A stretch of 44,274 nucleotides of DNA from Pseudomonadota bacterium (GTDB lineage Bacteria; Desulfobacterota; Binatia; Bin18). The stretch is taken from assembly GCA_005804965.1 (NCBI GenBank), contig SYOC01000108.1, positions 1-44,274 on the forward strand, written 5' to 3'. Below the pieces are notes generated by a model. That model made no database searches. It was not told the DNA's origin and saw only the letters and a list, made by a program, of their open reading frames with translations. Of this stretch, positions 20,274-34,643 are shown in pieces; the stretch's first letter is position 1; the number at the start of each line of letters is the position of its first letter. The translations under genes were made by a program, and so were the position numbers.

Positions 20274-22022
20274 TTAGATCACCAGCTCCAGCTGGATAAT
20301 GAAATTATCGCGATCGCGCAGGAAACCAATGCCGTTAAATTGCCCGTCGATGAAGTTGTATTGCAACAGCAAGCGGAACGGATCGCGCGTCAAGGTCACT
20401 CCGGGTTGCAGAACGAAAGCGCCTTGCCAGTCGTAGAAAAAGTTTAACGCCGGCGACACCACGCCCGAGCGATACGAAGTCGAGACTGAGAGGGTGTTAA
20501 TGATCTGGTACGGGTCCAAGTTCACGAAGGCTTGGTTCTTGCGATGGGGATCACGTACGGCAGCGGCAGCATGGCCAAAGCCAAAATCGGGCGAGACCGA
20601 TTGCAACGAGGTGTCATTAAAATCGAGGATATGGGTACCGAAGGCTTGTGCGCTGATGAGAAAGGATTGGGTTGGGTTCAAGAAACGGATGTAGCGATTG
20701 ATGTCGATCCCTAGTGACCAACGCACGACATCGGAACGATCAATGTCGTTCTTGTAGTAGAGCAACGGTTTTTTCGTGACAGGATTGACGCCGACTTGAC
20801 GATAACCAGGCGTCACTTTTCCGGTAAGTGCCGGGCCCAGAAGTTGGTTCGGCGCGGAGTTCAAGAAAAATGGCTCGGCATAGAAATAGGCCAATTCGCT
20901 GCGCACCACGGCAGATAACTGCGGCACACTAAAGCTGAGCGTGCCACCGCTAATCTGCATTTTGGGAAACCACTGATTGGCATGAAAATGATCGACCAAG
21001 AACCGCGAGGTCTTTCCCTCAGAGACGGCAGTTTCAAACTCACCGAGGTCGATCGGCGGACTGCCTGCCCTGGTCGGCACCACGATCCGCAAGGTCGGCG
21101 CGTCGAGATAGGTATAATAATGCGCGATGCTAAAGGTAAAATCTCCGATGACTCCAAGGATACGTCCACCGCCGCGTGCATCGGTGAAATTACGTGCTGG
21201 TTTCTTCACAAATCCGTTGATCCCAGGAGGGTTCGGCGTCGCCCAGGGCGAACCAGCAGGCACACTCTCAGCGACTTTGTCGTCAAGCGCGACGTAGCCC
21301 TCAACATCAATTTCCGAAAATGGGCCTTGGCTACCTAAACCGTAGATGACGCGCAGCATATCGAGGGGCACTCGGCGTTCGTCGAGCGGGACGAGGAACC
21401 CACCGAAGCTCGCATCGAGAGGATTGATCTGATCCAGCAACCGAAACACATCGGTTTCGCCCCAGGAAAGATTCTGGCGACCGATGCGCAGGAACAAAGG
21501 ACCTTTGGTGTAGTCCACGTAAGCTTCGAATAAACGATGGCGATGACGCAGTCGCTGGCGCGTGCGGAGTTTATCGCCTGCCGAGTTACGCACGAATCTC
21601 TCGCTAAACACGTCCGGTCCATAGTCCCACACGCCGTCGTATTCCCCACGATAGGTCATAAAGTAGTCCATATCGTCAGGAGCGAGAAGGCGAAGCGGCG
21701 CTAGTGGAACCTGTAAGAACGACAGCAGCCCATCGTAGCGTCCGTGGATCAACTCAGTGAGGTTGTGCCGCATCTCCATCTGGATGAAGGTACGGTTCTG
21801 CAGCATGTTCCAGTCGTTAAACGGTGTACGTAAACGTGTGTTGTCTGCTGCACTTTGCGTTGCGAACCCAGTCCGGTTATAGACCCGACCATTAAAACGT
21901 AAGGTTTCCTCTTTATCAAGGAAAATTGCATTGGCGCGTGTCGGCACCAAGCACATAGCGCATAACAGGCTCAGACCCGCCCACTGCCACCAGCGAGCTC
22001 GATTTCTCGGGTGTCTGTCCAT
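20274..22022 (-). CDS. DUF1302-family outer-membrane protein
   Basis: This 582-residue protein has a cationic N-terminus and a signal peptide ending about LVPTRANAIF. A beta-strand-rich body follows, with the DUF1302 hallmarks IGRQNLSWGETDVFRLLDQINP and DERRVPLDMLRV. It ends in LQYNFIDGQFNGIGFLRDRDNFIIQLELVI, an aromatic/aliphatic alternating C-terminal strand typical of outer-membrane barrels. DUF1302 proteins often neighbour MMPL/RND exporters, YCF48 proteins and DUF1329 lipoproteins; here the RND genes are 4 kb away with an ABC operon between. The ATG at 22022 follows AGGGGAG. It probably provides an outer-membrane channel or binding protein for hydrophobic substrates (inference). Confidence 0.8.
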   Translation of the reverse strand: MDRHPRNRARWWQWAGLSLLCAMCLVPTRANAIFLDKEETLRFNGRVYNRTGFATQSAADNTRLRTPFNDWNMLQNRTFIQMEMRHNLTELIHGRYDGLLSFLQVPLAPLRLLAPDDMDYFMTYRGEYDGVWDYGPDVFSERFVRNSAGDKLRTRQRLRHRHRLFEAYVDYTKGPLFLRIGRQNLSWGETDVFRLLDQINPLDASFGGFLVPLDERRVPLDMLRVIYGLGSQGPFSEIDVEGYVALDDKVAESVPAGSPWATPNPPGINGFVKKPARNFTDARGGGRILGVIGDFTFSIAHYYTYLDAPTLRIVVPTRAGSPPIDLGEFETAVSEGKTSRFLVDHFHANQWFPKMQISGGTLSFSVPQLSAVVRSELAYFYAEPFFLNSAPNQLLGPALTGKVTPGYRQVGVNPVTKKPLLYYKNDIDRSDVVRWSLGIDINRYIRFLNPTQSFLISAQAFGTHILDFNDTSLQSVSPDFGFGHAAAAVRDPHRKNQAFVNLDPYQIINTLSVSTSYRSGVVSPALNFFYDWQGAFVLQPGVTLTRDPFRLLLQYNFIDGQFNGIGFLRDRDNFIIQLELVI

Positions 22023-22132
22023 AACTCCCCTTCTTCCCACATGTCTTCGACTCTCCGCGCTCAATGCGTCAGAGGCAGGGGGAAGCTATATGAGAAGACC
22101 GGCGGAGTAAAGAGGAAATTAAATAGGGAGTT

Positions 22133-22196
22133 GAGATAGAGACGGAGGTTTGAGGGAGCGAGGAGAAAGATTGGGATGGAGAGGTTTCTCTATCTC
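22133..22196. terminator. Purine-rich inverted repeat downstream of the DUF4340 gene
   Basis: The arms GAGATAGAGA (22133-22142) and TCTCTATCTC (22187-22196) are exact complements in the 203-base gap between the DUF4340 and DUF1302 genes. Around them lies a purine-rich tract (about 22100-22186) and then a pyrimidine-rich one. It could terminate the ABC operon or be low-complexity sequence. Confidence 0.35.
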
Positions 22197-22225
22197 TGTC
22201 TCCCTTCTCTGCCTCTTTTGCTCGA

Positions 22226-22762
22226 TTAACTCGTCGGGAGCGCGGCTAAGAAAAGCTTACGCATGTCCCAAATGATCACAGAGCCGACCAACACGATCTG
22301 CGGGGCTTCGTTGATCTGCGCATAGAGGCTGGACTGCACAGGGTTATTCTTGCCGAGCGCTAAGGTTCGGGGACTTTCACCCTCGATTTGCATCGACACT
22401 TGAGCGACTGGGGGTTTCAGACCAAATTCCTCGCCAAGCCGAGGATCTCCATCGACTTCGCCTAAATGCAGCAGCTTATGCAGATTGGCCAGAAAATCGT
22501 CAACTGCATCTTGCCGCAGAGGGATACCACTCGTCGGTTCTATCCAGCCTTGGGGGGTGCGCTGACACACTAATTGCTTTCCCTCGAAAGCGACGGTCAG
22601 CCGTGTGACTTTATCCGAAAGGAAATCGAGCACCGGACGGTCAGGCTTCCTTGCAGCATCTGACCCGAGCACTTTCTTTTCAGGTGCCGTCACATAGGCG
22701 TAGCCGCCCAGAAGGCAAGCCAACAGTCCCAGGACTACAACGCGACGCGTTTCCCCACTCAT
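22226..22762 (-). CDS. DUF4340 domain membrane-anchored protein
   Basis: This 178-residue protein has one N-terminal membrane segment (RRVVVLGLLACLLGGYAYVTA). A periplasmic DUF4340 domain follows, with the features DFLSDKVTRLTVAFEGKQLVCQRTPQGWIEP and LGKNNPVQSSLYAQINEAPQIVLVGSVI. DUF4340 proteins regularly follow GldG-like proteins in ABC operons. It is the last gene of the operon and its ATG overlaps the stop of the GldG gene (ATGA), so it should be made in step with it. The domain function is unknown; it likely acts at the periplasmic face of the transporter. Confidence 0.8.
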   Translation of the reverse strand: MSGETRRVVVLGLLACLLGGYAYVTAPEKKVLGSDAARKPDRPVLDFLSDKVTRLTVAFEGKQLVCQRTPQGWIEPTSGIPLRQDAVDDFLANLHKLLHLGEVDGDPRLGEEFGLKPPVAQVSMQIEGESPRTLALGKNNPVQSSLYAQINEAPQIVLVGSVIIWDMRKLFLAALPTS

Positions 22763-24168
22763 CCTTTTTGCCTCCGACGAGCAAACACTGCCATACCGAG
22801 CAGAAACACAGCCACAGGTTCGAGCACCACCATCACCCAAAAGAAAAGCCGCGATTGTCCAGCGGTCATGTATAAACTTTGTTTCGGAGTGGAGCCTCGT
22901 TTCGACACCGGCGCATTAGGCGTACGCCCCAAGGCCACAAGCTCCTGGCGGCCAACAATCCAACTGACCGTGTTCATGAAGAAATCGACATTGCCTGGGA
23001 CGCGCACATAGAAATTATTGACGAAGTCCGAGTCGCCCAATACCACAACTTTCCCAGCTTTTTCACCTTCGCCAACTGTGGCGACAGCAGCAACAGGAAA
23101 TGGACCACGCTCGTCTTCACCGCTCTTGAACGCCAGTTCATTCCGTTCTGCACGTTCTTTGCTCTTCACAATCCAACTCGTATCGCTGGAAAACGCGAAC
23201 GCTTGAGCCTTCCCTCCCTCTTGCACTCGCACAGGCTGCACCACCGGAAGCATCGGCTCTCCGCGCGGTTGGCGCGGAAAAACTTCTTTGGAGAAATTCG
23301 CGATCATCGGCATCAGGGGCTCACCACCTGCCACTTGGTTCTGATCGTCAACAACGACAGTCTCTTCCATCTTGAACCCGAACTGTGACAGATACCCAGA
23401 AAGAGCCGGCACAGTATATGGGTCGAGCATAAAAATAATGTGACCACCGGCCTGGAGGTAGGTGGTCATAGCATCAAGTTCTCCCGGGCTTAATTCTCCT
23501 TTGGGACCGGCGACGATGATCAAACTAGCATCAGAAGGGATCTTCCGCACTGTCAAAAGCGGGAGCGGACGCACTCGGTAATTTTCGGTCTCTAACACTT
23601 TCCGTAACACACCATAGCCAGAGCGTTCTTCAGGCTCGACCGGATCGTTCTCCCCATGGCCAACGAGGAAGTAGAGCGTCTTCTCTGACTGCACGACTCG
23701 TAACAGCGCGTTGAGCAAGCGTTCTTCGTCTGCCAAAGGAAGAGTGAGACGATTATCCTCGGTCTCAACGACGGTCGTCCCGTAGGCAGTCACACCATAG
23801 CGTTGCGCCAACCCTGGGGCGCGATCAAGGTCGAAGAGTTGGTACGAAAAGAACGACGACTCTTGCGTCATGAGGTCGAGCAGCTCGCCATGTTTTTCTC
23901 GCTCGCCCCGCCGGTAGAAGACCGTAGCTTGCACGGGTTTATTCAACGCGTGCAGCGCCTGCGAAGTCATTTCCGAAAGGCTGTATTTCTTTTCCGGTGT
24001 AAGGTCGAAGCGCGTGTTCGCCCGAGTGACCAAGGCCTCAATGGCAATGATCAGCACAAGGAAGAAAACAACTTCCAGGCCGAGTAAGATGAATCGCTTC
24101 GTCGACTCACGGCTCAACCAACCGACTTCTGCTGGTGAGGAAGAAGGCACTATCGCATCCCGCGCCAT
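22759..24168 (-). CDS. GldG-like ABC transporter auxiliary component
   Basis: This 469-residue protein has an N-terminal helix (RFILLGLEVVFFLVLIIAIEALV) and then the GldG extracytoplasmic domain. Its markers are TRANTRFDLTPEKKYSLSEM, VFYRRGEREKHGELLDLM, LYFLVGHGENDP and IIFMLDPYTVPALSGYLSQFGF. A C-terminal membrane helix (LFFWVMVVLEPVAVFLLGMAVF) precedes a basic tail. In Bacteroidetes GldAFG supports gliding. Outside that phylum homologous operons (annotated 'gliding motility-associated' or NosY-like) occur without gliding. It overlaps the permease gene by 19 bases and the DUF4340 gene by 4. No other gliding genes are seen, so gliding is not claimed. Confidence 0.85.
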   Translation of the reverse strand: MARDAIVPSSSPAEVGWLSRESTKRFILLGLEVVFFLVLIIAIEALVTRANTRFDLTPEKKYSLSEMTSQALHALNKPVQATVFYRRGEREKHGELLDLMTQESSFFSYQLFDLDRAPGLAQRYGVTAYGTTVVETEDNRLTLPLADEERLLNALLRVVQSEKTLYFLVGHGENDPVEPEERSGYGVLRKVLETENYRVRPLPLLTVRKIPSDASLIIVAGPKGELSPGELDAMTTYLQAGGHIIFMLDPYTVPALSGYLSQFGFKMEETVVVDDQNQVAGGEPLMPMIANFSKEVFPRQPRGEPMLPVVQPVRVQEGGKAQAFAFSSDTSWIVKSKERAERNELAFKSGEDERGPFPVAAVATVGEGEKAGKVVVLGDSDFVNNFYVRVPGNVDFFMNTVSWIVGRQELVALGRTPNAPVSKRGSTPKQSLYMTAGQSRLFFWVMVVLEPVAVFLLGMAVFARRRQKG

Positions 24169-24893
24169 TTACGCGACTCCAAAGATTGCAAGGTAAGATA
24201 CAAAAAGAAAACGGTCGCTAGCAGGAAGAAAACGACATCTTGCGAGTTGATGACGCCCTTTGAAAAGTCCTCAAAGCGATCAAAGAGCGAGAACCGGCTG
24301 ATCGTACCGATCATCTGTGGTCCGACCGCCTCTTCATTCCATGTTAGAAACCAAAAGAACACTAAGACGCCATACGTGGACATGGCACATACAACTTGGT
24401 TCTCGGTCAAAGAGGAGATGAAAGTGCCACACGCAATGAAGGTAGCACCAAGAAGGATCACGCCCAAATATCCTGCCAGTGGCGGCCCCCAGGCAAAGTT
24501 ATGCACGGTCGAGAGCATCAGCGGGTAGAGCAACGTCCCGAACACCATCAGCACAAAAACGAGGAGACATGCCAAAAATTTCCCGAGCACAATCTGGACA
24601 TCGGTCAGGGGATAGGTCCACAGGAGTTCGAGGGTCCCGAGCTTTTTCTCTTCAGCAAATAACCGCATGGTCAACAGCGGTAGGATCAACAGCGTCACGA
24701 AGCGCACGTCTTGGAAATAGTACGCCCACAACGAGGCAGTGATGTCCATGAAATCGCCGAAGAGATCGTAGAAGACCATGTCGGTGTAGAAGAAATAGCC
24801 GGTCAGCAGCAGAAATGCTGTCGCCAGAGAATAAGCGATGAATGATCCGAAGTAGAGGCGAAGCTCTTTCTTAAAAACGCACAGGGATTTCAT
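24150..24893 (-). CDS. GldF-like ABC transporter permease
   Basis: This 247-residue integral membrane protein has about six predicted helices. The start CVFKKELRLYFGSFIAYSLATAFLLLTG and the segment LPLLTMRLFAEEKKLGTLELLWTYPLTDVQIVLGKFLAC are hallmarks of the ABC-2/GldF permease family. It is the second gene of the operon, 48 bases after the ATPase gene and overlapping the GldG gene. It forms the transmembrane pathway with the upstream ATPase. The substrate is unknown. Confidence 0.88.
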   Translation of the reverse strand: MKSLCVFKKELRLYFGSFIAYSLATAFLLLTGYFFYTDMVFYDLFGDFMDITASLWAYYFQDVRFVTLLILPLLTMRLFAEEKKLGTLELLWTYPLTDVQIVLGKFLACLLVFVLMVFGTLLYPLMLSTVHNFAWGPPLAGYLGVILLGATFIACGTFISSLTENQVVCAMSTYGVLVFFWFLTWNEEAVGPQMIGTISRFSLFDRFEDFSKGVINSQDVVFFLLATVFFLYLTLQSLESRKWRGMR

Positions 24894-24941
24894 ACACGTA
24901 TGGCAGCATCAAATGAGAAGGTTCAGGAGAGCAAGTCCTCT

Positions 24942-25901
24942 TTACAGCGCCGCCTCAAGCCGACGGTCTTCGAGGCGGATCAATTGAAGATACATATCCT
25001 CCAAAGTCGGCTCTAACGAGCGAATTTCCAGTAAGCCCCAGCCTTGGTCAAGAATAGCCTTGCTGACTTGTTTGCGGATATCTTCACCTTGATAGTCAAG
25101 AACGAACGCCAATGATGCCGTGTCGCTACTCGTACGCCGCAGGCTTTCGACACCAGGAAACGATTGCAGGAGGCCAGAAACTGGAGCCTCTGGTCCTTCG
25201 AGGTCCACACGGATTTGGCGGGTCCGCTGGAGTTGCGCACGGAGATTAGCCAGTGACTCCGAAGCCAAAATCTTGCCGCGATCAATCACAATGACGCGGT
25301 CACAGACTGAACTTACCTCAGAGAGAATGTGGGTAGACAGGATGACCGTTCGCTCTGAACCTAAATCGCGGATGAGGCGACGAATCTCGACGACTTGTTC
25401 TGGGTCGAGGCCAATGGTCGGTTCGTCGAGGATAAGCACCTGTGGCTTATGCAGCAGCGCCTGCGCAATCCCCACACGTTGCCGATAGCCTTTCGAGAGA
25501 TGGCCAATCACACGATCTTTGACGCGGTCGAGTCCACAGGCGTCGATAACGCGGGCCACTTCACTCTTCCGCGACATGCGTGGGACGTCTTTGGCCTCGG
25601 CCACAAAATCGAGAAAACTGCGGACCGGAAGGTCCGGATAGACAGACACGCGTTCAGGGAAGTAACCAATCATCTGGCGGACCTGAAACGACTGCGAGAC
25701 GACATCGAATTGCCCGACAGTGGCCCGTCCAGACGTAGGTGGGAAGAAACCAGCAAGAATCCGCATGGTCGTGCTTTTGCCGGCACCATTCGGACCAAGG
25801 AAGCCAACCACTTCGCCGCGAGCAATCGAGAATGAAATATGATCGACCGCAAGGATCGGCCCGAACCGTTTCGTGACATTTTCGACTTCGATCATACTCA
25901 T
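24942..25901 (-). CDS. ABC transporter ATP-binding protein, GldA-like
   Basis: This 319-residue ATPase has Walker A GPNGAGKST (36-44), signature LSKGYRQRVG, Walker B VLILDEPTIGLD and a switch His in LSTHILSEV. The C-terminal 90 residues form the extension typical of ABC-2 and GldA ATPases. It energises the GldF-type permease encoded downstream. It is the first gene of the ABC operon, starting after two terminators that isolate it from the RND genes. The ATG at 25901 is used, with a purine-rich GGGAG 10 bases upstream; an alternative is 25895. Confidence 0.93.
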   Translation of the reverse strand: MSMIEVENVTKRFGPILAVDHISFSIARGEVVGFLGPNGAGKSTTMRILAGFFPPTSGRATVGQFDVVSQSFQVRQMIGYFPERVSVYPDLPVRSFLDFVAEAKDVPRMSRKSEVARVIDACGLDRVKDRVIGHLSKGYRQRVGIAQALLHKPQVLILDEPTIGLDPEQVVEIRRLIRDLGSERTVILSTHILSEVSSVCDRVIVIDRGKILASESLANLRAQLQRTRQIRVDLEGPEAPVSGLLQSFPGVESLRRTSSDTASLAFVLDYQGEDIRKQVSKAILDQGWGLLEIRSLEPTLEDMYLQLIRLEDRRLEAAL

Positions 25902-26078: not shown

Positions 26079-28574
26079 TCAGGTGCGGAGTTCCATACTG
26101 ATGTCGTGCCGGGTTGCCCACCAGTGTTCGCCCGCTGCCACGATAAGAGCAAGCGCCCCCAACGTCAACAAGTCAGCGTAATCGAAGTAGTAGAGCACGA
26201 TAGCAGGAACGAACGTCAGGGTGAGCACCACCATCATCGCATTGTTGGGTAATGGGAAGCGTGGTTTCAACAAGGAGACAATACCAGGAATAAACGCCAA
26301 GGCACCGACAATATGGAAGAAGAGCAACATCACCAGCAAAATCGTCATTTCCGACTGAAACTTCATAGGGAAGAAAATCCAGAACAACACCCCCATGGTT
26401 AAAGTCGAGCCGGTAAACATGATGGCCTTCCCGGTGGTCATGAGCGCTTCCTCGATAGCGCGATCGTGATCGCCGTGACGCTGAAATTCCTCGATGATCC
26501 GCGAAAGGACATAGTAGCCATAATCAACGCCAATACCGATGCCTACCGCTGCAACCGGCAAGGAATTAATGTTGGCGTCGATGCCCATCCAATACATAAC
26601 AGCTTCGGACAAAGGTTGAGACACGATCGACGGAATCATCACGATCAACGCCCCCACCACCGAAGCATAAGTCAACACGCTGAGCACGAACACGGACACC
26701 ATCACTAAGATCAAGTTCCATTTATACGACCATTCCACTTCTTCGTTTACCGCCGCCAATATCCCGAGGAGCCCACCTGCTAAACGGAACTGGATATTCT
26801 CGACCGGGTTCTCCTCAATGAATTGCCGTGCCATAGAGATCGATCCGACCACGGTCTCGTGGTTGTAGTCCTTATAATAGACGGTGATGGTAGCGTTCTG
26901 GGAGTTCTTGTCCAAGAAACGGTCAAGATCATCCGATCCCAAGGTGTTGAGAAACTGGAAGAAGATATTGCCGATGTCACGCGGGTTATCCGGCAAGATC
27001 GCCCACTTCGGGATGCCTTCCTGAAACATTTGGTAGAGACGGCGCGCCATAGTGGTAATGGTAATGCTGCCGCCCACTAGTTTTTGCTGCTCCATGAAGC
27101 GTTGAAACTTCTCTAGGGTAGTCAGCACGTTGGGGTCTTTGATCACTCCCTCCTCTGCACCCTCGGCCAGAATCACCAGTTGCGAGGCACCGACGAACTT
27201 CTCGTTGATGCGGTCATACGACACATTGTAGTCGTGAGAATCGTAGAGCAGGGCTTTGCCGATCGACACATCGCCAATTTTTAGGTAGCGCGAGTACGTC
27301 ATGCCCAGCACCATGAATCCAGCAAAGATTGCGATCAGGGCATGGCGATACCCGCCTTGACTGATCTTCACCATGAAGCGGTTAATGGTGTTGTAGAGAT
27401 GATCGGAAAAGCGCGTGCCTGCTTTGGGATCATCTTTTGGCGGCGGCAGGAAAGACAAGATGATAGGGTGTAAGGTCACCACGCTAATCGCAATAGTCGA
27501 GACCCAGAAGCACGTCACATAGGCAATCTTTTGGATCACCGGAATACGCGCGACAGCGAGCGTCAGAATAGCGAAGGCGTCGGTGGCGATAGAGACAAGC
27601 GCTGGGCTAAACAAGCCCACATAGGAGTTCATGATCGCCTCACGCTTGTTCCCCACCTGGTGATACTCCTCGTGGTAGCGTTCCATGGACTGCACCGAGT
27701 GGGAGAGGGCACGGGCGGTAATAAGCACGAAAATCACGAGCACGAGGGGATCAAGGTTAAAGCCAAAGTAGCCAGCGAACCCCAATGCCCACCATGAACT
27801 CAACAGTCCAGACCCTAAGGGCACGAGGACCCCGGTGGCGGTGCGGAAATAGAACCAGAGCAAGACAATGATGACGAGGATGGAGAGAAAGATGATTCCG
27901 TAAATATGATTTTTATAACTGAAGACCCATGAATACAGCATGGGAAACCCAGCTACATAGACCTTGTGCTGTCCATCGGCTTCTACGGTTTGGCGAATCT
28001 TGGTAATGCGGTCGTGGAGGTTGCTGAAGTCCACGCCCTCCTCCCAGAAACCGGCGGAGATCAGCGCCGCGACGTTATCTCGCGAGACAAAGAAGCCATG
28101 CACGCCTTCGTTCGTATATACGGCCTTTTTAATCGCCTTAACGTCATCCTCCGTTTTTGGCGGCCCCGGATACATAATGGGATAAGCGGTGATGATGGCA
28201 CCCTTGATCTGAATGTTCTTCATCTTTGGGTGCGTCAACGAGAACAGTTGGTATGGGTTCACTCCAGCCGTCTCCAGCATTTGCAACGTCGCCCAATTGA
28301 TCTTATTCAAGGTATCGACGTTGAAAATATCGCCCTCTTTCTTCTCAATCGACATAACCAGCACATTGGCAGTGCCGAACATACGTCGATATTTCTGGTA
28401 CAACTGAATGTATTCGTGTCCTGGCGGATAAAGATCGAAGAAGTTCGTGTACACACGCATATTCAGCGATTGCCAGCCAAGGAAGAGAGTCAGGATCGTC
28501 AGCAAGGCAATAATAGACCAGCGGAAATTCAGCAGAAAACGAAGATAGGCTTCCATCCAACTACGTGGCAACAT
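26079..28574 (-). CDS. MMPL/RND family exporter, second of a tandem pair
   Basis: This 831-residue inner-membrane transporter of the HAE2/HpnN-like RND branch has two six-helix halves with large periplasmic loops. It starts MLPRSWMEAYLRFLLNF. The first loop has YTNFFDLYPPGHEYIQLYQ. Helix 4 carries LITARALSHSVQSMERYHEEY. Helix 10 carries GIGIGVDYGYYVLSR with D684-Y685, the acidic pair used for proton coupling in MMPL proteins. Related exporters move lipids, hopanoids or other hydrophobic molecules. It is exactly the length of the paralogue 54 bases upstream and about four-fifths identical by eye. It ends the cluster, followed by two terminators. The ATG at 28574 is supported by alignment with the twin. 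Confidence 0.92.
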   Translation of the reverse strand: MLPRSWMEAYLRFLLNFRWSIIALLTILTLFLGWQSLNMRVYTNFFDLYPPGHEYIQLYQKYRRMFGTANVLVMSIEKKEGDIFNVDTLNKINWATLQMLETAGVNPYQLFSLTHPKMKNIQIKGAIITAYPIMYPGPPKTEDDVKAIKKAVYTNEGVHGFFVSRDNVAALISAGFWEEGVDFSNLHDRITKIRQTVEADGQHKVYVAGFPMLYSWVFSYKNHIYGIIFLSILVIIVLLWFYFRTATGVLVPLGSGLLSSWWALGFAGYFGFNLDPLVLVIFVLITARALSHSVQSMERYHEEYHQVGNKREAIMNSYVGLFSPALVSIATDAFAILTLAVARIPVIQKIAYVTCFWVSTIAISVVTLHPIILSFLPPPKDDPKAGTRFSDHLYNTINRFMVKISQGGYRHALIAIFAGFMVLGMTYSRYLKIGDVSIGKALLYDSHDYNVSYDRINEKFVGASQLVILAEGAEEGVIKDPNVLTTLEKFQRFMEQQKLVGGSITITTMARRLYQMFQEGIPKWAILPDNPRDIGNIFFQFLNTLGSDDLDRFLDKNSQNATITVYYKDYNHETVVGSISMARQFIEENPVENIQFRLAGGLLGILAAVNEEVEWSYKWNLILVMVSVFVLSVLTYASVVGALIVMIPSIVSQPLSEAVMYWMGIDANINSLPVAAVGIGIGVDYGYYVLSRIIEEFQRHGDHDRAIEEALMTTGKAIMFTGSTLTMGVLFWIFFPMKFQSEMTILLVMLLFFHIVGALAFIPGIVSLLKPRFPLPNNAMMVVLTLTFVPAIVLYYFDYADLLTLGALALIVAAGEHWWATRHDISMELRT

Positions 28575-28628: not shown

Positions 28629-31124
28629 CTAGATACGCAGCTCCATGCCGATATTGTGTCGCGTCGCGTAGAGATGCTCTCCGACTCCAACGACCAGTGC
28701 AAGAATACCCAGCTCCAACAAGTCTGCCATATCGAAGTAATAGAGTATCCCAGAAGGGATAAAGATCGCTAATAACACAATGACCATGACTTTCGGTGGC
28801 AGCGGGAAGCGCGGCTTCAACAACGAAATCATGCCGGGAATGAACGCTAAAGCTCCAACCACATGCAAGAAGAGCAGCAACGTCAAAAGAATCGCCATCT
28901 CCGATTGAAACTTCATCGGGAAGAAAATCCAGAAGAACACGCTCACAGTCAGCGTCGTTCCAGTAAACATAATCGCTCGGCCTGTGGTCATCAGCGCTTC
29001 TTCAATGGCTTTTTCGTGATCGTTGTAACGCTGGAATTCTTCCACGACGCGCGAGAGCACATAGTAGCCGTAGTCGATACCAATACCGATACCGACGGCT
29101 GCGACCGGCAGCGAATTGATATTGGCATCGACGCCCATCCAGTACATGATGGCTTCAGATAGCGGTTGCGCCACAATCGAGGGAATCATCACAATCAGCG
29201 CCCCAACCACCGAGGCGTAGGTCAACATGCTCAACACAAAGACCGTGACCATCACTAAGATGAGATTCCATTTGTACGACCATTCTACTTCTTCGTTGAC
29301 TGCCGCGAGGATACCGAGGAGACCACCGGCGAGGCGAAACTGGATATTTTCCACCGGGTTTTCGTCGATGAACTGCTGGGCACGCCCAATCGAGCCGACT
29401 ACTGTCGCGTGGTTATAATCCTTGTAGTACACGGTGATGGTCGCGTTCTGTGACGTTTTGTCGATGAAACCGTCGAGATCATCTGCACCAAGCGTGTTCA
29501 GGAACTGATAGAAAATGTTCCCTACATCGCGGGGATTGTCAGGAATGATCGCCCACTTGGGAATACCCTCCTGAAACATCTGATAGAGCCGACGAGCCAT
29601 TGTGGTGATGGTAATCGACCCACCCACAAGCTCTTGTTGCTCCATGAAACGTTGGAATCGCTCGAGGGTTTGCAAAACTTGCGGGTCCTTAATGACGCCC
29701 TCTTGCTTGCCCTCAGCCAGAATCACCAACTGCGAGGCACCAACGAACTTTTCGTTGATCTTATCGTACGACACATTGTAATCGTGTGTCGCAGACATCA
29801 GCGCCTTCCCAATCGAAACATCGCCAATTTTGAGATAGCGCGAGTACACCATGCCAATGGCCAAGGCAATAGAGAACGACGCCAAGACGATATAGCGATT
29901 ATTTCCCTGACTGATAGCCACCATTGCCCGGTTGATGGAGGTATAGAGCTTGTCGGAAAAGCGCGTACCAGCTTTCGGGTCGTGCGGCGGCGGTGGGATG
30001 TAATAAAGGATAATCGGGTGGAGCGTCACCACACTGATAAAGATAGTAAAAATCCAGAAACTAGAAACGTAGGCGAGCTTTTGGATCAAGGGAATATGGG
30101 CAAGCGCCAACGTGAGGGTCGCAAACCCATCCGCCGCGATCGACACAATGGCAGGGCTGAACAACCCCAGGTATGAGGACATGATCGCTTGCTGCTTGTC
30201 TTGCAGGCGGTGATATTCCTCATGATAACGCTCCATCGATTGGACGGAATGCGAGAGGGCACGGGCAGTAATGAGGACCAGCACCACTAGGACCAGCGGG
30301 TCAAGGTTGAAGCCGAAACGCCCAGCTAAGCCCAACGCCAGCAAAGAACTGAGCGCACCCGAAAAGAGCGGCACCCATACTCCCGTGGCAGTCCGGAAAT
30401 AAAACCACAGCATCGCCAAAATAATGACGGCAGTGATGCCGATAACACCGAGGATGTAATTCTTGTAGCTGAACACCCAAGAATAGAGCATCGGAAAGCC
30501 GCTGATATAGACGGTGTGCTTGCCGTCTTTCTCGATTTCCTCACGAATACTCTGCATGCGTTCATACAAGTTGCGAAAATCGACCCCCTCCTCCCAAAAT
30601 CCAGCAGTAATTAATGCCGCAGTATTGTCTTGAGCGACATAAAACCCATGTACCCCTTCGTTGGTGTACACCGCTTTTTTGATAGCTGCGATGTCATCCG
30701 GGGTTTTGGGTGGCCCAGGGTACATGATGGGATAGGCAGTGATGATGGCACCGCGGATGCGAATATTCTTGACTTTTGGGTGCGTCAGCGAGCGAATTTG
30801 GTAGGGGTTCACGCCAGAAGTCTCTACAACTTTTAGCGTTGCATAGTTGACTTTACTGATGGTATCGACATTAAAGATGTCGCCCTCTTTGCATTCGATC
30901 ATCAGCATGAGCACGTTGGCGGTGCCGAACATGCGGCGATATTGCTGATACAACTGGATGTAAGGATGGCCCGGAGGGTACAGATCGAAGAAGTTGGTGT
31001 ACACCCGCATTTGCGTGGCGTAGTACGCAGCATAAATGGTGGCAATAGTGACGAGGCCGATAATGAGTATGCGAAATTTGAGGAGAAAGTTGATGTACGC
31101 TTCCATCCAACTGCGCGGTAGCAT
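28629..31124 (-). CDS. MMPL/RND family exporter, first of a tandem pair
   Basis: This 831-residue twin of the next gene starts MLPRSWMEAYINFLLKFR and has the same periplasmic YTNFFDLYPPGHPYIQLYQ. Its helix 4 motif is ITARALSHSVQSMERYHEEY and its helix 10 motif GIGIGIDYGYYVLSR (D684-Y685). Both twins also share GGSITITTMARRLYQMFQEGIPKW in the second periplasmic domain. The ATG at 31124 lies behind AGGAACCCTCC-type spacing and matches the twin's start; a frame extension to 31169 is not needed. It follows the YCF48 gene by 81 bases on the same strand. RND exporters can work as homo- or heterotrimers, so a mixed complex of the twins is possible (inference). Confidence 0.92.
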   Translation of the reverse strand: MLPRSWMEAYINFLLKFRILIIGLVTIATIYAAYYATQMRVYTNFFDLYPPGHPYIQLYQQYRRMFGTANVLMLMIECKEGDIFNVDTISKVNYATLKVVETSGVNPYQIRSLTHPKVKNIRIRGAIITAYPIMYPGPPKTPDDIAAIKKAVYTNEGVHGFYVAQDNTAALITAGFWEEGVDFRNLYERMQSIREEIEKDGKHTVYISGFPMLYSWVFSYKNYILGVIGITAVIILAMLWFYFRTATGVWVPLFSGALSSLLALGLAGRFGFNLDPLVLVVLVLITARALSHSVQSMERYHEEYHRLQDKQQAIMSSYLGLFSPAIVSIAADGFATLTLALAHIPLIQKLAYVSSFWIFTIFISVVTLHPIILYYIPPPPHDPKAGTRFSDKLYTSINRAMVAISQGNNRYIVLASFSIALAIGMVYSRYLKIGDVSIGKALMSATHDYNVSYDKINEKFVGASQLVILAEGKQEGVIKDPQVLQTLERFQRFMEQQELVGGSITITTMARRLYQMFQEGIPKWAIIPDNPRDVGNIFYQFLNTLGADDLDGFIDKTSQNATITVYYKDYNHATVVGSIGRAQQFIDENPVENIQFRLAGGLLGILAAVNEEVEWSYKWNLILVMVTVFVLSMLTYASVVGALIVMIPSIVAQPLSEAIMYWMGVDANINSLPVAAVGIGIGIDYGYYVLSRVVEEFQRYNDHEKAIEEALMTTGRAIMFTGTTLTVSVFFWIFFPMKFQSEMAILLTLLLFLHVVGALAFIPGMISLLKPRFPLPPKVMVIVLLAIFIPSGILYYFDMADLLELGILALVVGVGEHLYATRHNIGMELRI

Positions 31125-31205
31125 TGAGGAACCCTCCTTCTTCAGATCAAGATGCGAATGCAGGCGCACTTCCCGAATGGAAGCACGCCCGAAGAATGCT
31201 CTCGA

Positions 31206-32189
31206 TTAATTCTTCTTAAAACGAGCAGCAAAATCGACGGTCTTCCCCTGCGTTGTGAGGACGAGCCCGTTTGATCCCCCAATGACGCCAAGTGCGCCTT
31301 GCTGCACCGTCGATACTCCCATCATCCAATACAATGAGAGTTCTTCTGGCGAATCGACGAGGCTCCAATTTTTCCCACCATCAGAAGAAGTGAGAATGAC
31401 CCCTTCATCTCCCACCGCCCATCCAGAGTTCCCATCGATGATGACCCCATAGAGTGCCGTCTGTACCGGGCTCTCATACGGTTTCCACGACTGTCCGCCG
31501 TCCGCGCTTTGCAGGATTGTGCCGTCCATACCGACCACACATCCCCAGCTATCGTCGGCAAAACTCATCCCCAAGAGCGTCGCTTCGGTTCCGGTATCTT
31601 TCTTCTGCCATGACGCACCAAAGTCTTCACTGACGAGCAACGTACCACGCTCACCCGAGATCCAGGCCTTCCCTGAACTGCTCATCTGCACGCTGTAGAG
31701 GAACACGTCTTCACCGGGAGACTTGTTCTCCCACGTTTTCCCACCATCCGCCGTCACTAACACCGCACCGTAATCGCCAACTGCGATGCCGTGTTGCGCA
31801 TCAACGAAGGTAATATTGAAGAGGTGATAGGTTGAGCCACTGATTTGCTTTTCCCATTTGACGCCGCCATCCACAGTATGGAGGATGAGGCCCGACTTCC
31901 CAGACACCCAACCTTCTTTTTCGCTAATGAACCGCACCCCGTACAAGGGGTCAATAACGCCGCCATCTTGCTTTTCCCAACGCTTACCACCGTCTTTGGT
32001 GTGGTAGATCGCACCAAAGCTTCCTACCGTCCAAGCTTCAGTGGCAGAAAACATATGTACAGCATACAAGTGGTCACGAATCGGGGCACTATCCTGAGCA
32101 CGTAGCTCTCCCGATTGCCAAACGACAGTACCTACTAAGACAATGATTCCTACCCATAACCTCCAGGGTCGGATTCTTCCCATGTGCAT
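31206..32189 (-). CDS. Secreted YCF48/BNR-repeat beta-propeller protein
   Basis: This 327-residue protein has a signal peptide (RLWVGIIVLVGTVVWQSGELRAQ) and at least six YCF48/BNR repeats with Asp-box-like motifs (DGGKRWEKQ, DGGVKWEKQ, DGGKTWENK, DFGASWQKK, DGGQSWKPY, DGGKNWSLV). It forms a periplasmic propeller. YCF48-like proteins are commonly encoded next to MMPL/RND exporters and DUF1302/DUF1329 proteins in proteobacterial export clusters. The ATG at 32189 follows AAAGGAGGGAG; the longer frame from 32222 is unlikely. It is the first gene of the RND cluster and divergent from a third RND paralogue, sharing a 190-base promoter region. Confidence 0.85.
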   Translation of the reverse strand: MHMGRIRPWRLWVGIIVLVGTVVWQSGELRAQDSAPIRDHLYAVHMFSATEAWTVGSFGAIYHTKDGGKRWEKQDGGVIDPLYGVRFISEKEGWVSGKSGLILHTVDGGVKWEKQISGSTYHLFNITFVDAQHGIAVGDYGAVLVTADGGKTWENKSPGEDVFLYSVQMSSSGKAWISGERGTLLVSEDFGASWQKKDTGTEATLLGMSFADDSWGCVVGMDGTILQSADGGQSWKPYESPVQTALYGVIIDGNSGWAVGDEGVILTSSDGGKNWSLVDSPEELSLYWMMGVSTVQQGALGVIGGSNGLVLTTQGKTVDFAARFKKN

Positions 32190-32269
32190 GACGGAACTCC
32201 CTCCTTTGCCGGATGCAAACAAGCGTGCTCACTCTCTTAGACTAGGGAGAAAAGGCTTGTCAACGGCGG

Positions 32270-32314
32270 CGTTACATGAACGCCCGTCCCACCAGAGGGT
32301 AAATTCATGTAACG
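32270..32314. promoter_or_regulatory. Pair of operator-like half sites between divergent YCF48 and RND genes
   Basis: CGTTACATGAA (32270-32280) and its perfect complement TTCATGTAACG (32304-32314) are 23 bases apart. Each copy is itself a near-palindrome centred on CATG (GTT-ACATG-AAC). Their place in the 189-base divergent gap suits a dimeric repressor controlling both directions. A weak -10 candidate for the rightward gene is TATAGT at 32345-32350. No regulator gene is adjacent. Confidence 0.6.
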
Positions 32315-32378
32315 GAATGACTCGCCCCATTCACGAAGGGATGGTATAGTAGCCGCGCATCGGCTGATGGAGGGGATT

Positions 32379-34643
32379 ATGTTTGCTCGTGCAAGCCTTT
32401 TCATGGCGCGTCGTCGCCTACTCACCTGTGTCTTGTGTCTCATCTTGGTGCTCCCTGCCGCCTGGGCGGCACGGCCGGCAGCATTCTCATCAAAATTGTC
32501 CAACTACTATCCGGCGCACCACCCCCACGTCAAGCTTTACCAAGAATTCACAGACATGCTCAAGATGACGAACACCGTAGTCATCACCGTGACTGTGCGC
32601 GAGGGCACGATTTTCACCTCGGGGACACTCGACAAAGTGCACCGCCTCACGGTCAGCCTTCTCGAAACGAGGGGAGTGAACCCGTTCGAGGTGATGTCGC
32701 TCACGCATCCGCGCCTGAAAAACATTAGCGTCCGCAGTGAAGGCATCAGCGTTTTGCCAATTATCGAGCATCCCGAACAGCCGCAGACGCCTGAGCAGCT
32801 CTCGCAGATCAAGAATGCGGTCTACACCAATTTGGGCATACGCGGCGTCTATGTTGCGCCGGACGAAAAAACCGCACTGATCCGCGCTGGCTTTTGGGAC
32901 GGCATGGCCGAGCCACGTGCCGTGCTCGCTCGCTTACAGACACTGGTAGAGAAAGAGCGCGACACGAACACCGACATCGACGTCACGGGCAATCTCGTCC
33001 TCGCAGCGTGGCTCATTGAAGCTGCCCCGCGCTTTCTTTTACTGCTTCTGGTGAGCGCTATAGCTATCCTCATCGGGACTCGAGTGGCAACAGGACTATG
33101 GAGCTGTGCCGTGACAGTGCTCGCCGTCAACCTCTTTGGCGCGGCGTGGGGCTTCGCCCTGCTCGGTCAGAAAGGCCTTGCCTTCGACCCGCTCGCGTTG
33201 ATCGCGCTTTTTGCCCTGGGGATACGTGGCGTGACTATCGCGATAGCGTGGGCGTCTCATCTCACGCGCGTGCACGGCTTAATCGCCACCCCGTTCGCTC
33301 CAGAGGCTCACCGCGATCTCGTCATTGAACGGACAGCAGCTACGCTGGGCCGTCCACTAATGACAGCGCTCTGTATCGACGGGATAGCGCTGTTTACCTT
33401 GACCCGATCAGATGTCCCTGCGCTCCAATCTCTTGGCTATCTCGGGGTGGGATGGATGCTGGGCCTCTTCTTGTCGCTTTGGACCGTATTACCGCTATGG
33501 TCGAGCTTCGTCTCTCTGCACAAATCCACCACTGCCTGGGGAGCCCGCCTTGTCGCACCGTGCGCATCTTTTCTGCAGACCATCAGTCGCCAACCGGCGG
33601 TTCCTTCCGTCGTTATTGCATTCCTCCTCCTGCTTGGCGGTCTGGCAGTTATTCAACTCCAGGCTGGGAAAACTATGTGGGGCACCTCGCTTTTTTATCC
33701 TACCCATCCTTTCAATCGCGCGACTTCGTTGGTCAACCGTAAGTTCATTGGCGGTAATCAACTCATCGTAATTGCTCATGCTCCAGGAGAAGCCGCTTTT
33801 CGCGACCCCCGGGCATTGCGGGCACTCGACCATTTTCAGCACTATATGGCAGAAGACGCCCAGTTCGCTGGCTCCATGGCCATCACCAGTCTGGCAAAAT
33901 CCGTCACCCGCATGTTCCATGAAGATGTCCCCAAATGGGAAATCATCCCCGACGACATGGATTCCACTGGCCAAATTATTTTTCGCATCATCTCCTCTGC
34001 GGCTACTCCTGCCGAGGTGGAGCGATTCCTTTCGACGGACTTCCGTACGACAGCGGTCTCGTTCTTCTATCGAGATTATTCGCCCGAGATCATGGATCGC
34101 ATTCTCAATCGAGCACGAACCTTCATTACTCAGCACCAAAACGGCGACAATGGCCTCGTCCAATTCCGCGTGGGAGGTGGTATTCTCGGCGTTCTCTCAG
34201 CCGTGCATTCCGCAGTCGAGGGTACGTATTGGCGCTTTGCCGGGGCACTCTTCCTGCTCGCGGCGGTGGGCGGACTCATCGCTGGCACGTCGCTGCGCTC
34301 CATGGCGAAGGTGGCACTGGCCGTCATGCTTTCCCAAGGTGCTCTCCTCAGCTTGTTCTGGCTCGCAGGTATCGACCTCAACATGTATACCCTCCCTGCC
34401 CTCCTCGTCGGGGCTGGTGCGATTGTGCTTCCGACCATACTCACAGTCGCCAGGGACACCAACGCGCCGATGTCCTTCGCACCTTTGACTGCAACAAGTG
34501 TCGTGATTGTAGCGGCTGCGGCAATCTGGCTAGTGTCTCCGCTACGTTTGCAAGCAGACATGGGCTTGTTCTTTATCGGACTAGCTGTGGTCATGACCGG
34601 CATTCCAGTGTTGCTCGCTTCGCGCTCTCGGGAAGCCGCGTAG
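32379..34643 (+). CDS. Divergent third MMPL/RND paralogue lacking the membrane Asp
   Basis: This 754-residue integral membrane protein is homologous to the twin RND exporters through matching landmarks: NYYPAHHPHVKLYQEF, EVMSLTHPRLKNISV, GSMAITSLAKSVTRMFHEDVPKWEIIP and FRVGGGILGVLSAVHSAVE. It is 77 residues shorter. In helix 10 the twins have GIGIDYGYY, and here the line reads GAGAIVLPTIL, so L684 replaces D684 and a Pro replaces Y685. About 25-30 residues of the following cytoplasmic segment are missing. The helix 4 ARALSHSVQ motif is also changed. Proton coupling is therefore probably lost (inference). The ATG at 32379 follows GGAGGGG. It may be a partner or regulator of the twins, or a decaying copy; the frame is intact with no stops, which argues for selection. 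Confidence 0.85.
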   Translation: MFARASLFMARRRLLTCVLCLILVLPAAWAARPAAFSSKLSNYYPAHHPHVKLYQEFTDMLKMTNTVVITVTVREGTIFTSGTLDKVHRLTVSLLETRGVNPFEVMSLTHPRLKNISVRSEGISVLPIIEHPEQPQTPEQLSQIKNAVYTNLGIRGVYVAPDEKTALIRAGFWDGMAEPRAVLARLQTLVEKERDTNTDIDVTGNLVLAAWLIEAAPRFLLLLLVSAIAILIGTRVATGLWSCAVTVLAVNLFGAAWGFALLGQKGLAFDPLALIALFALGIRGVTIAIAWASHLTRVHGLIATPFAPEAHRDLVIERTAATLGRPLMTALCIDGIALFTLTRSDVPALQSLGYLGVGWMLGLFLSLWTVLPLWSSFVSLHKSTTAWGARLVAPCASFLQTISRQPAVPSVVIAFLLLLGGLAVIQLQAGKTMWGTSLFYPTHPFNRATSLVNRKFIGGNQLIVIAHAPGEAAFRDPRALRALDHFQHYMAEDAQFAGSMAITSLAKSVTRMFHEDVPKWEIIPDDMDSTGQIIFRIISSAATPAEVERFLSTDFRTTAVSFFYRDYSPEIMDRILNRARTFITQHQNGDNGLVQFRVGGGILGVLSAVHSAVEGTYWRFAGALFLLAAVGGLIAGTSLRSMAKVALAVMLSQGALLSLFWLAGIDLNMYTLPALLVGAGAIVLPTILTVARDTNAPMSFAPLTATSVVIVAAAAIWLVSPLRLQADMGLFFIGLAVVMTGIPVLLASRSREAA

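Follow-up and report, generated by a model that had tools for sequence, protein, structure and literature searches.

A conserved clade of AmeD-type RND homologues without proton-relay residues in a family of Candidatus Binatota

Proteins of the RND superfamily are usually read as proton-driven pumps, and a locus in which one of three RND genes lacks residues of the proton relay raises the question of whether such a gene is kept and, if so, what its product does. The window analyzed here, a stretch of 44,274 nucleotides with 55% GC, comes from a 4.66 Mb genome in 440 contigs whose family, of uncultured bacteria, lies within Candidatus Binatota. A contig search found the same locus in records WTHE01000183.1 and JACQEL010000526.1.

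On the minus strand, the gene for a YCF48-like (AmeC-like) periplasmic protein (31206..32222; PF14870, E 9e-38), a conserved neighbor, is the first of an operon that continues with two AmeD-like HAE3/MMPL RND transporters, twin B (28629..31169, with an ATG at 31124; PF03176, E 1e-31) and twin A (26079..28574; PF03176, E 3e-33, and motifs). These are followed on the same strand by a GldA-like ABC transporter ATPase (24942..25901; PF00005), a GldF-like ABC-2 permease (24150..24893; TIGR03518, E 9e-43, below cutoff) and a GldG-like ABC auxiliary protein (22759..24168; PF09822), all three assigned to this locus by synteny as well, then by a short protein that is presumably DUF4340-like, a DUF1302 (AmeA-like) outer-membrane protein (20274..22064; PF06980, E 3e-27) and HpaB. 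The third RND gene (32379..34643) lies on the plus strand, divergent from the YCF48-like gene, with a NuoEF-like fusion and MobA downstream of it.

The third protein and its relay site

The 754-codon frame of the third gene is open from end to end, as a preliminary description of this DNA had stated, with a further in-frame ATG at 32367. By sequence homology its product belongs to the RND superfamily and to the AmeD-type HAE3 proteins within it, aligning with the twins in phmmer over residues 8-682 (E 1e-97 and 1e-93). The scan of window proteins returned no Pfam or NCBIfam match for it, and the Pfam MMPL model PF03176, which the twins match at 110-116 bits, recognizes none of the seven members of the clade formed by this protein and its orthologues (hereafter the third clade), even at E 1. 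AlphaFold2 models built on a seven-row alignment reached a pLDDT of only 49 for the third protein and 63 for twin B, and were therefore used for gross fold and not for residue geometry. The best 50 Foldseek matches of the third model are all RND, MMPL, Patched or NPC1 proteins (E to 1.6e-12, at pLDDT 49 and TM-scores of about 0.4-0.5). The twins and, as far as its low-confidence model indicates, the third protein resemble in fold and topology MmpL3, MmpL4/5 and HpnN, MMPL/HAE RND proteins of solved structure.

A three-way MAFFT alignment places Asp684-Tyr685 of the twins (GIG(V/I)-D684-Y685-GYY; Asp684 codons at 26523-26525 in twin A and 29073-29075 in twin B) opposite Leu684-Pro685 of the third protein (AIV-L684-P685-TIL; codons at 34428..34433), bearing out the replacement first reported in the preliminary description. 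There is no Asp or Glu in TM10 of the third protein or of the four other full-length orthologues, so that the loss of the Asp is independent of the exact placement of the alignment. AmeD-like proteins carry an Arg-x-x-Ser-His motif in TM4, and the twins have an Asp-Tyr pair in TM10 only; the charged core relay residue that this pair would lead one to expect in an AmeD-type protein is missing from the third clade. Its full-length members have lost His287 in TM4, Asp684, Tyr685 and Tyr688 in TM10, and Gln290, and as judged from these alignments the loss of relay residues runs throughout the clade. Two residues common to the twins, their relatives and the third clade are kept, namely Arg283 in TM4 (codon 33225..33227, the adjoining Ser-His and Gln being gone) and Asp334 in TM5 (codon 33378..33380), both invariant in full-length third-clade members and almost invariant among ordinary AmeD proteins.

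Asp684 of the twins aligns in phmmer with both D256 and D645 of MmpL3 (positions counted from the alignment), and the Asp-Tyr pair of the twins matches these residues with their adjoining Tyr; simulation work has described D256 and D645 as key to proton translocation (PMC10466384). MmpL3 carries Asp-Tyr in both TM4 and TM10, two helices that are free of acidic residues in the third clade.

The third protein is also shorter than the twins, by less in the relevant region than had been thought. From the Asp column to a conserved Trp in TM11 it has 33 residues against 48 in the twins, which makes the TM10-11 segment 15 residues shorter and the earlier figure of 25-30 missing residues an overestimate; all five full-length third-clade members lack part of this segment. 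The overall difference of 77 residues (754 versus 831) was correctly given, but it mostly reflects a twin-specific C-terminal extension, since after the Pro743 column the twins have 69 residues, most relatives 12-46 and the third protein 12. The extension itself, of about 40 residues, apparently forms one or two extra helices and is missing in most AmeD-like relatives.

A conserved clade under purifying selection

Orthologues of the third gene occur in 7 of the 16 genomes of the host's family (window genome included), at 82, 60, 54, 51, 48 and 48% identity to the window protein, the 60% and 54% copies being cut by contig ends. The frame is intact in five genomes from three genera, and the two partial copies, from two more genera, are open as far as they go. 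Six sequences, the window's among them, cover the relay site and read L, L, P, L, L and I there; none carries the Asp that the preliminary description had suggested looking for. The other distinct AmeD-like relatives covering the site have Asp in 59 of 60 cases and Asn in one, and given this near-invariance its absence from every covering third-clade orthologue is not a matter of chance.

The orthologues form a monophyletic group (SH-aLRT 100) whose stem, at 2.48 changes per site, is so long that the placement of the clade among AmeD proteins is uncertain. A profile search across the phylum, covering 395 genomes and scoring two candidates in each, found no other clade without the relay; outside the third clade all its matches have Asp save one with Asn, and a four-row profile scan of genome contigs recovered two of the orthologues already found. 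The protein with Asn in place of the relay Asp is a lone AmeD-like RND protein in a distant genome (L061; G206:C96:17252-19498), encoded in a YCF48-RND-DUF1302 operon that no other RND gene adjoins.

The position of the third gene is fixed. Wherever enough contig surrounds it, in six genomes, it is divergent from YCF48 and the twin(s); the ABC genes follow beyond the twin(s) where the contig extends, and the genes downstream of the third gene itself vary. All 7 family genomes with close twins (at least 76% identity) have it and all 9 others lack it, which makes a strong association but, with relatives from one genus among the genomes and several of them incomplete, no count of independent events. 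One genome (G009) keeps the ABC genes with neither twins nor third gene beside them. Synteny and co-occurrence thus support the tie to the export cluster that had been proposed from the window sequence.

In the divergent intergenic region (32223..32378), a six-locus alignment reveals conserved elements on both sides, promoter-like by resemblance to consensus: TTGTCAAC...CTTAGACTA for the operon and TATAGT/TATACT before the third gene. Between the YCF48 and third genes the window also holds a perfect 11-bp inverted repeat (32270-32314; CGTTACATGAA / TTCATGTAACG, with the arms 23 bp apart). We considered it as a conserved shared operator and dropped the idea, as the repeat is missing from the orthologous intergenic regions.

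The third gene is under purifying selection and is not decaying. Its dN/dS is 0.096 (95% CI 0.074-0.121) for the G000/G001 pair, where a high dS of about 1.1 makes the ratio approximate, and 0.184 (CI 0.127-0.263) for G002/G007, where dS is 0.15 and unsaturated. With values this far below 1, and upper bounds that refute neutrality, the suggestion that the gene is probably kept is well founded. Selection on the twins is tighter (dN/dS 0.026-0.074; 0.07 against 0.18 for the third gene in G002/G007).

Inverted constraint in the third clade

Within the third gene, constraint is concentrated outside the membrane. Periplasmic domain 1 (residues ~28-212; 32460..33014) is strongly constrained, with a dN/dS of 0.070, and periplasmic domain 2 (residues ~420-612; 33636..34214) is the most constrained part at 0.035, against 0.173 for the C-terminal membrane part, the least constrained, and 0.44 in a 31-codon relay stretch of TM10-11. 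Likewise, the window protein is 64% identical to its G005 orthologue in periplasmic domain 1 and 38% in TM2-6.

Ordinary AmeD proteins show the reverse. For distant third-clade orthologues, periplasmic minus membrane identity is 0.17-0.23, whereas AmeD control pairs at 40-62% identity give a mean of -0.157 and a maximum of +0.044 (n=877, the pairs sharing sequences and so not being independent). Among 29 disjoint nearest-neighbor control pairs, four are slightly positive, at no more than +0.046. One comparison calls for care: twin A of the window against its G001 orthologue gives +0.107, the same as the third gene in that species pair, a bias due mostly to turnover of hydrophobic helices at the periphery. 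Because twin A shows a similar bias at higher identity, the case for an inversion in the third clade is carried by the deeper comparisons, in which G001/G005 gives +0.205, G001/G002 +0.188 and G005/G002 +0.187 with no need of the window genome. In these, the periplasmic domains are conserved and the membrane domain drifts, inverting the pattern of ordinary AmeD proteins. Twin A differs from its orthologue in the same genus (L038:12558-15116) mainly in peripheral membrane helices, at a periplasmic identity of 0.90 and a membrane identity of 0.79, twin B being nearly unchanged.

A possible role beside the twins

The relay-less clade is real and conserved, and its function can be approached through what it has kept. 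We propose that the third protein is a clade-specific RND pseudo-transporter, serving the proton-coupled twins next to it as a non-motor partner, a reading to which we give about an even chance. It fits best because it accommodates a relay-free and drifting membrane domain, periplasmic domains under selection, and a strict association with intact AmeD-type pumps. In this model, the gene would descend from an AmeD-type (HAE3) RND transporter that lost its relay, and with it presumably proton coupling and transport; the 12-helix domain would now serve mainly as an anchor, leaving the work to the two periplasmic porter domains. The protein may associate physically with the twins in one envelope export system that also takes in the products of the YCF48, DUF1302 and GldAFG-like ABC genes. 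It would there be either the subunit without drive in an RND assembly of mixed composition or a subunit for docking or for handling substrate, and the substrate of such a system is probably a lipid or hydrocarbon. A stronger version, in which the locus encodes a natural heteromeric RND exporter with one subunit class permanently relay-less and worked by its neighbors, so that motor and substrate handling reside in separate genes, is conceivable but doubtful.

It is also conceivable that the third protein still transports with altered energetics, through the Arg283-Asp334 pair, another ion or as a passive conduit. The retention of both residues throughout the clade, and almost without exception among ordinary AmeD proteins, leaves room for such coupling, and the RND fold with both porter domains appears to be kept in the model. 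However, His287, Asp684, Tyr685, Tyr688 and Gln290 are all gone, and the TM10-11 stretch is the least constrained of the protein, the opposite of what a coupled helix bundle would lead us to expect; we regard this explanation as rather unlikely. The strong constraint on the periplasmic domains would suit a ligand sensor derived from a pump, acting as receptor or regulator of the export cluster outside any shared complex, as would the fact that the gene has a conserved promoter-like element of its own, pointing away from the operon. However, the window protein has no cytoplasmic signaling or DNA-binding domain among Pfam and NCBIfam models and a cytoplasmic TM10-11 segment shorter than that of the pumps, making this role quite improbable.

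Decay or an assembly artefact is hardly credible. The third gene does evolve faster than the twins and stands on a long stem branch, but intact frames in five genomes and open partial copies in two more genera, a dN/dS significantly below 1 and a fixed locus led us to reject it. Having given up the relay with its periplasmic domains still under selection, the third clade offers a natural example of separation of function, in which one could test whether the periplasmic domains of RND proteins do work by themselves and whether motor and non-motor subunits can combine in one RND assembly. The clade is also a warning that homology to an RND pump does not amount to an active pump.

MdtB2C of Escherichia coli, a heterotrimeric RND pump, belongs to the HAE1 family. 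It combines two unequal RND paralogues, of which one serves in proton relay and the other chiefly in binding substrate, with relay mutations mattering more in MdtB, and offers a precedent for unequal subunits (PMC4338810). Unlike the present locus, MdtB2C has a membrane fusion protein, the relay networks mutated there exist in both subunits, and no clade-wide relay loss is described (PMC4338810). A search of the open-access literature found no description of a relay-less RND clade. The oligomeric states reported for MMPL/HAE proteins count against the partner reading, MmpL3 having been described as a monomer and HpnN as a dimer.

The closest counterpart to the whole locus is AmeABCD of Castellaniella defragrans, implicated in monoterpene export, in which the HAE3-type RND protein AmeD accompanies DUF1302 AmeA and YCF48-like AmeC (PMC6394551). 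The twins, YCF48-like and DUF1302 genes of the window correspond to these, an RND, a YCF48-like and a DUF1302 gene lying together in one locus; the Pfam scan of window proteins turned up no DUF1329 (AmeB) gene. The description of AmeABCD includes a single RND protein, with neither a relay-less second RND nor GldAFG-like ABC genes (PMC6394551). The GldA/GldF/GldG-like ABC set (20274-25901 in the window) adjoins AmeD-type RND genes in several of the family's genomes.
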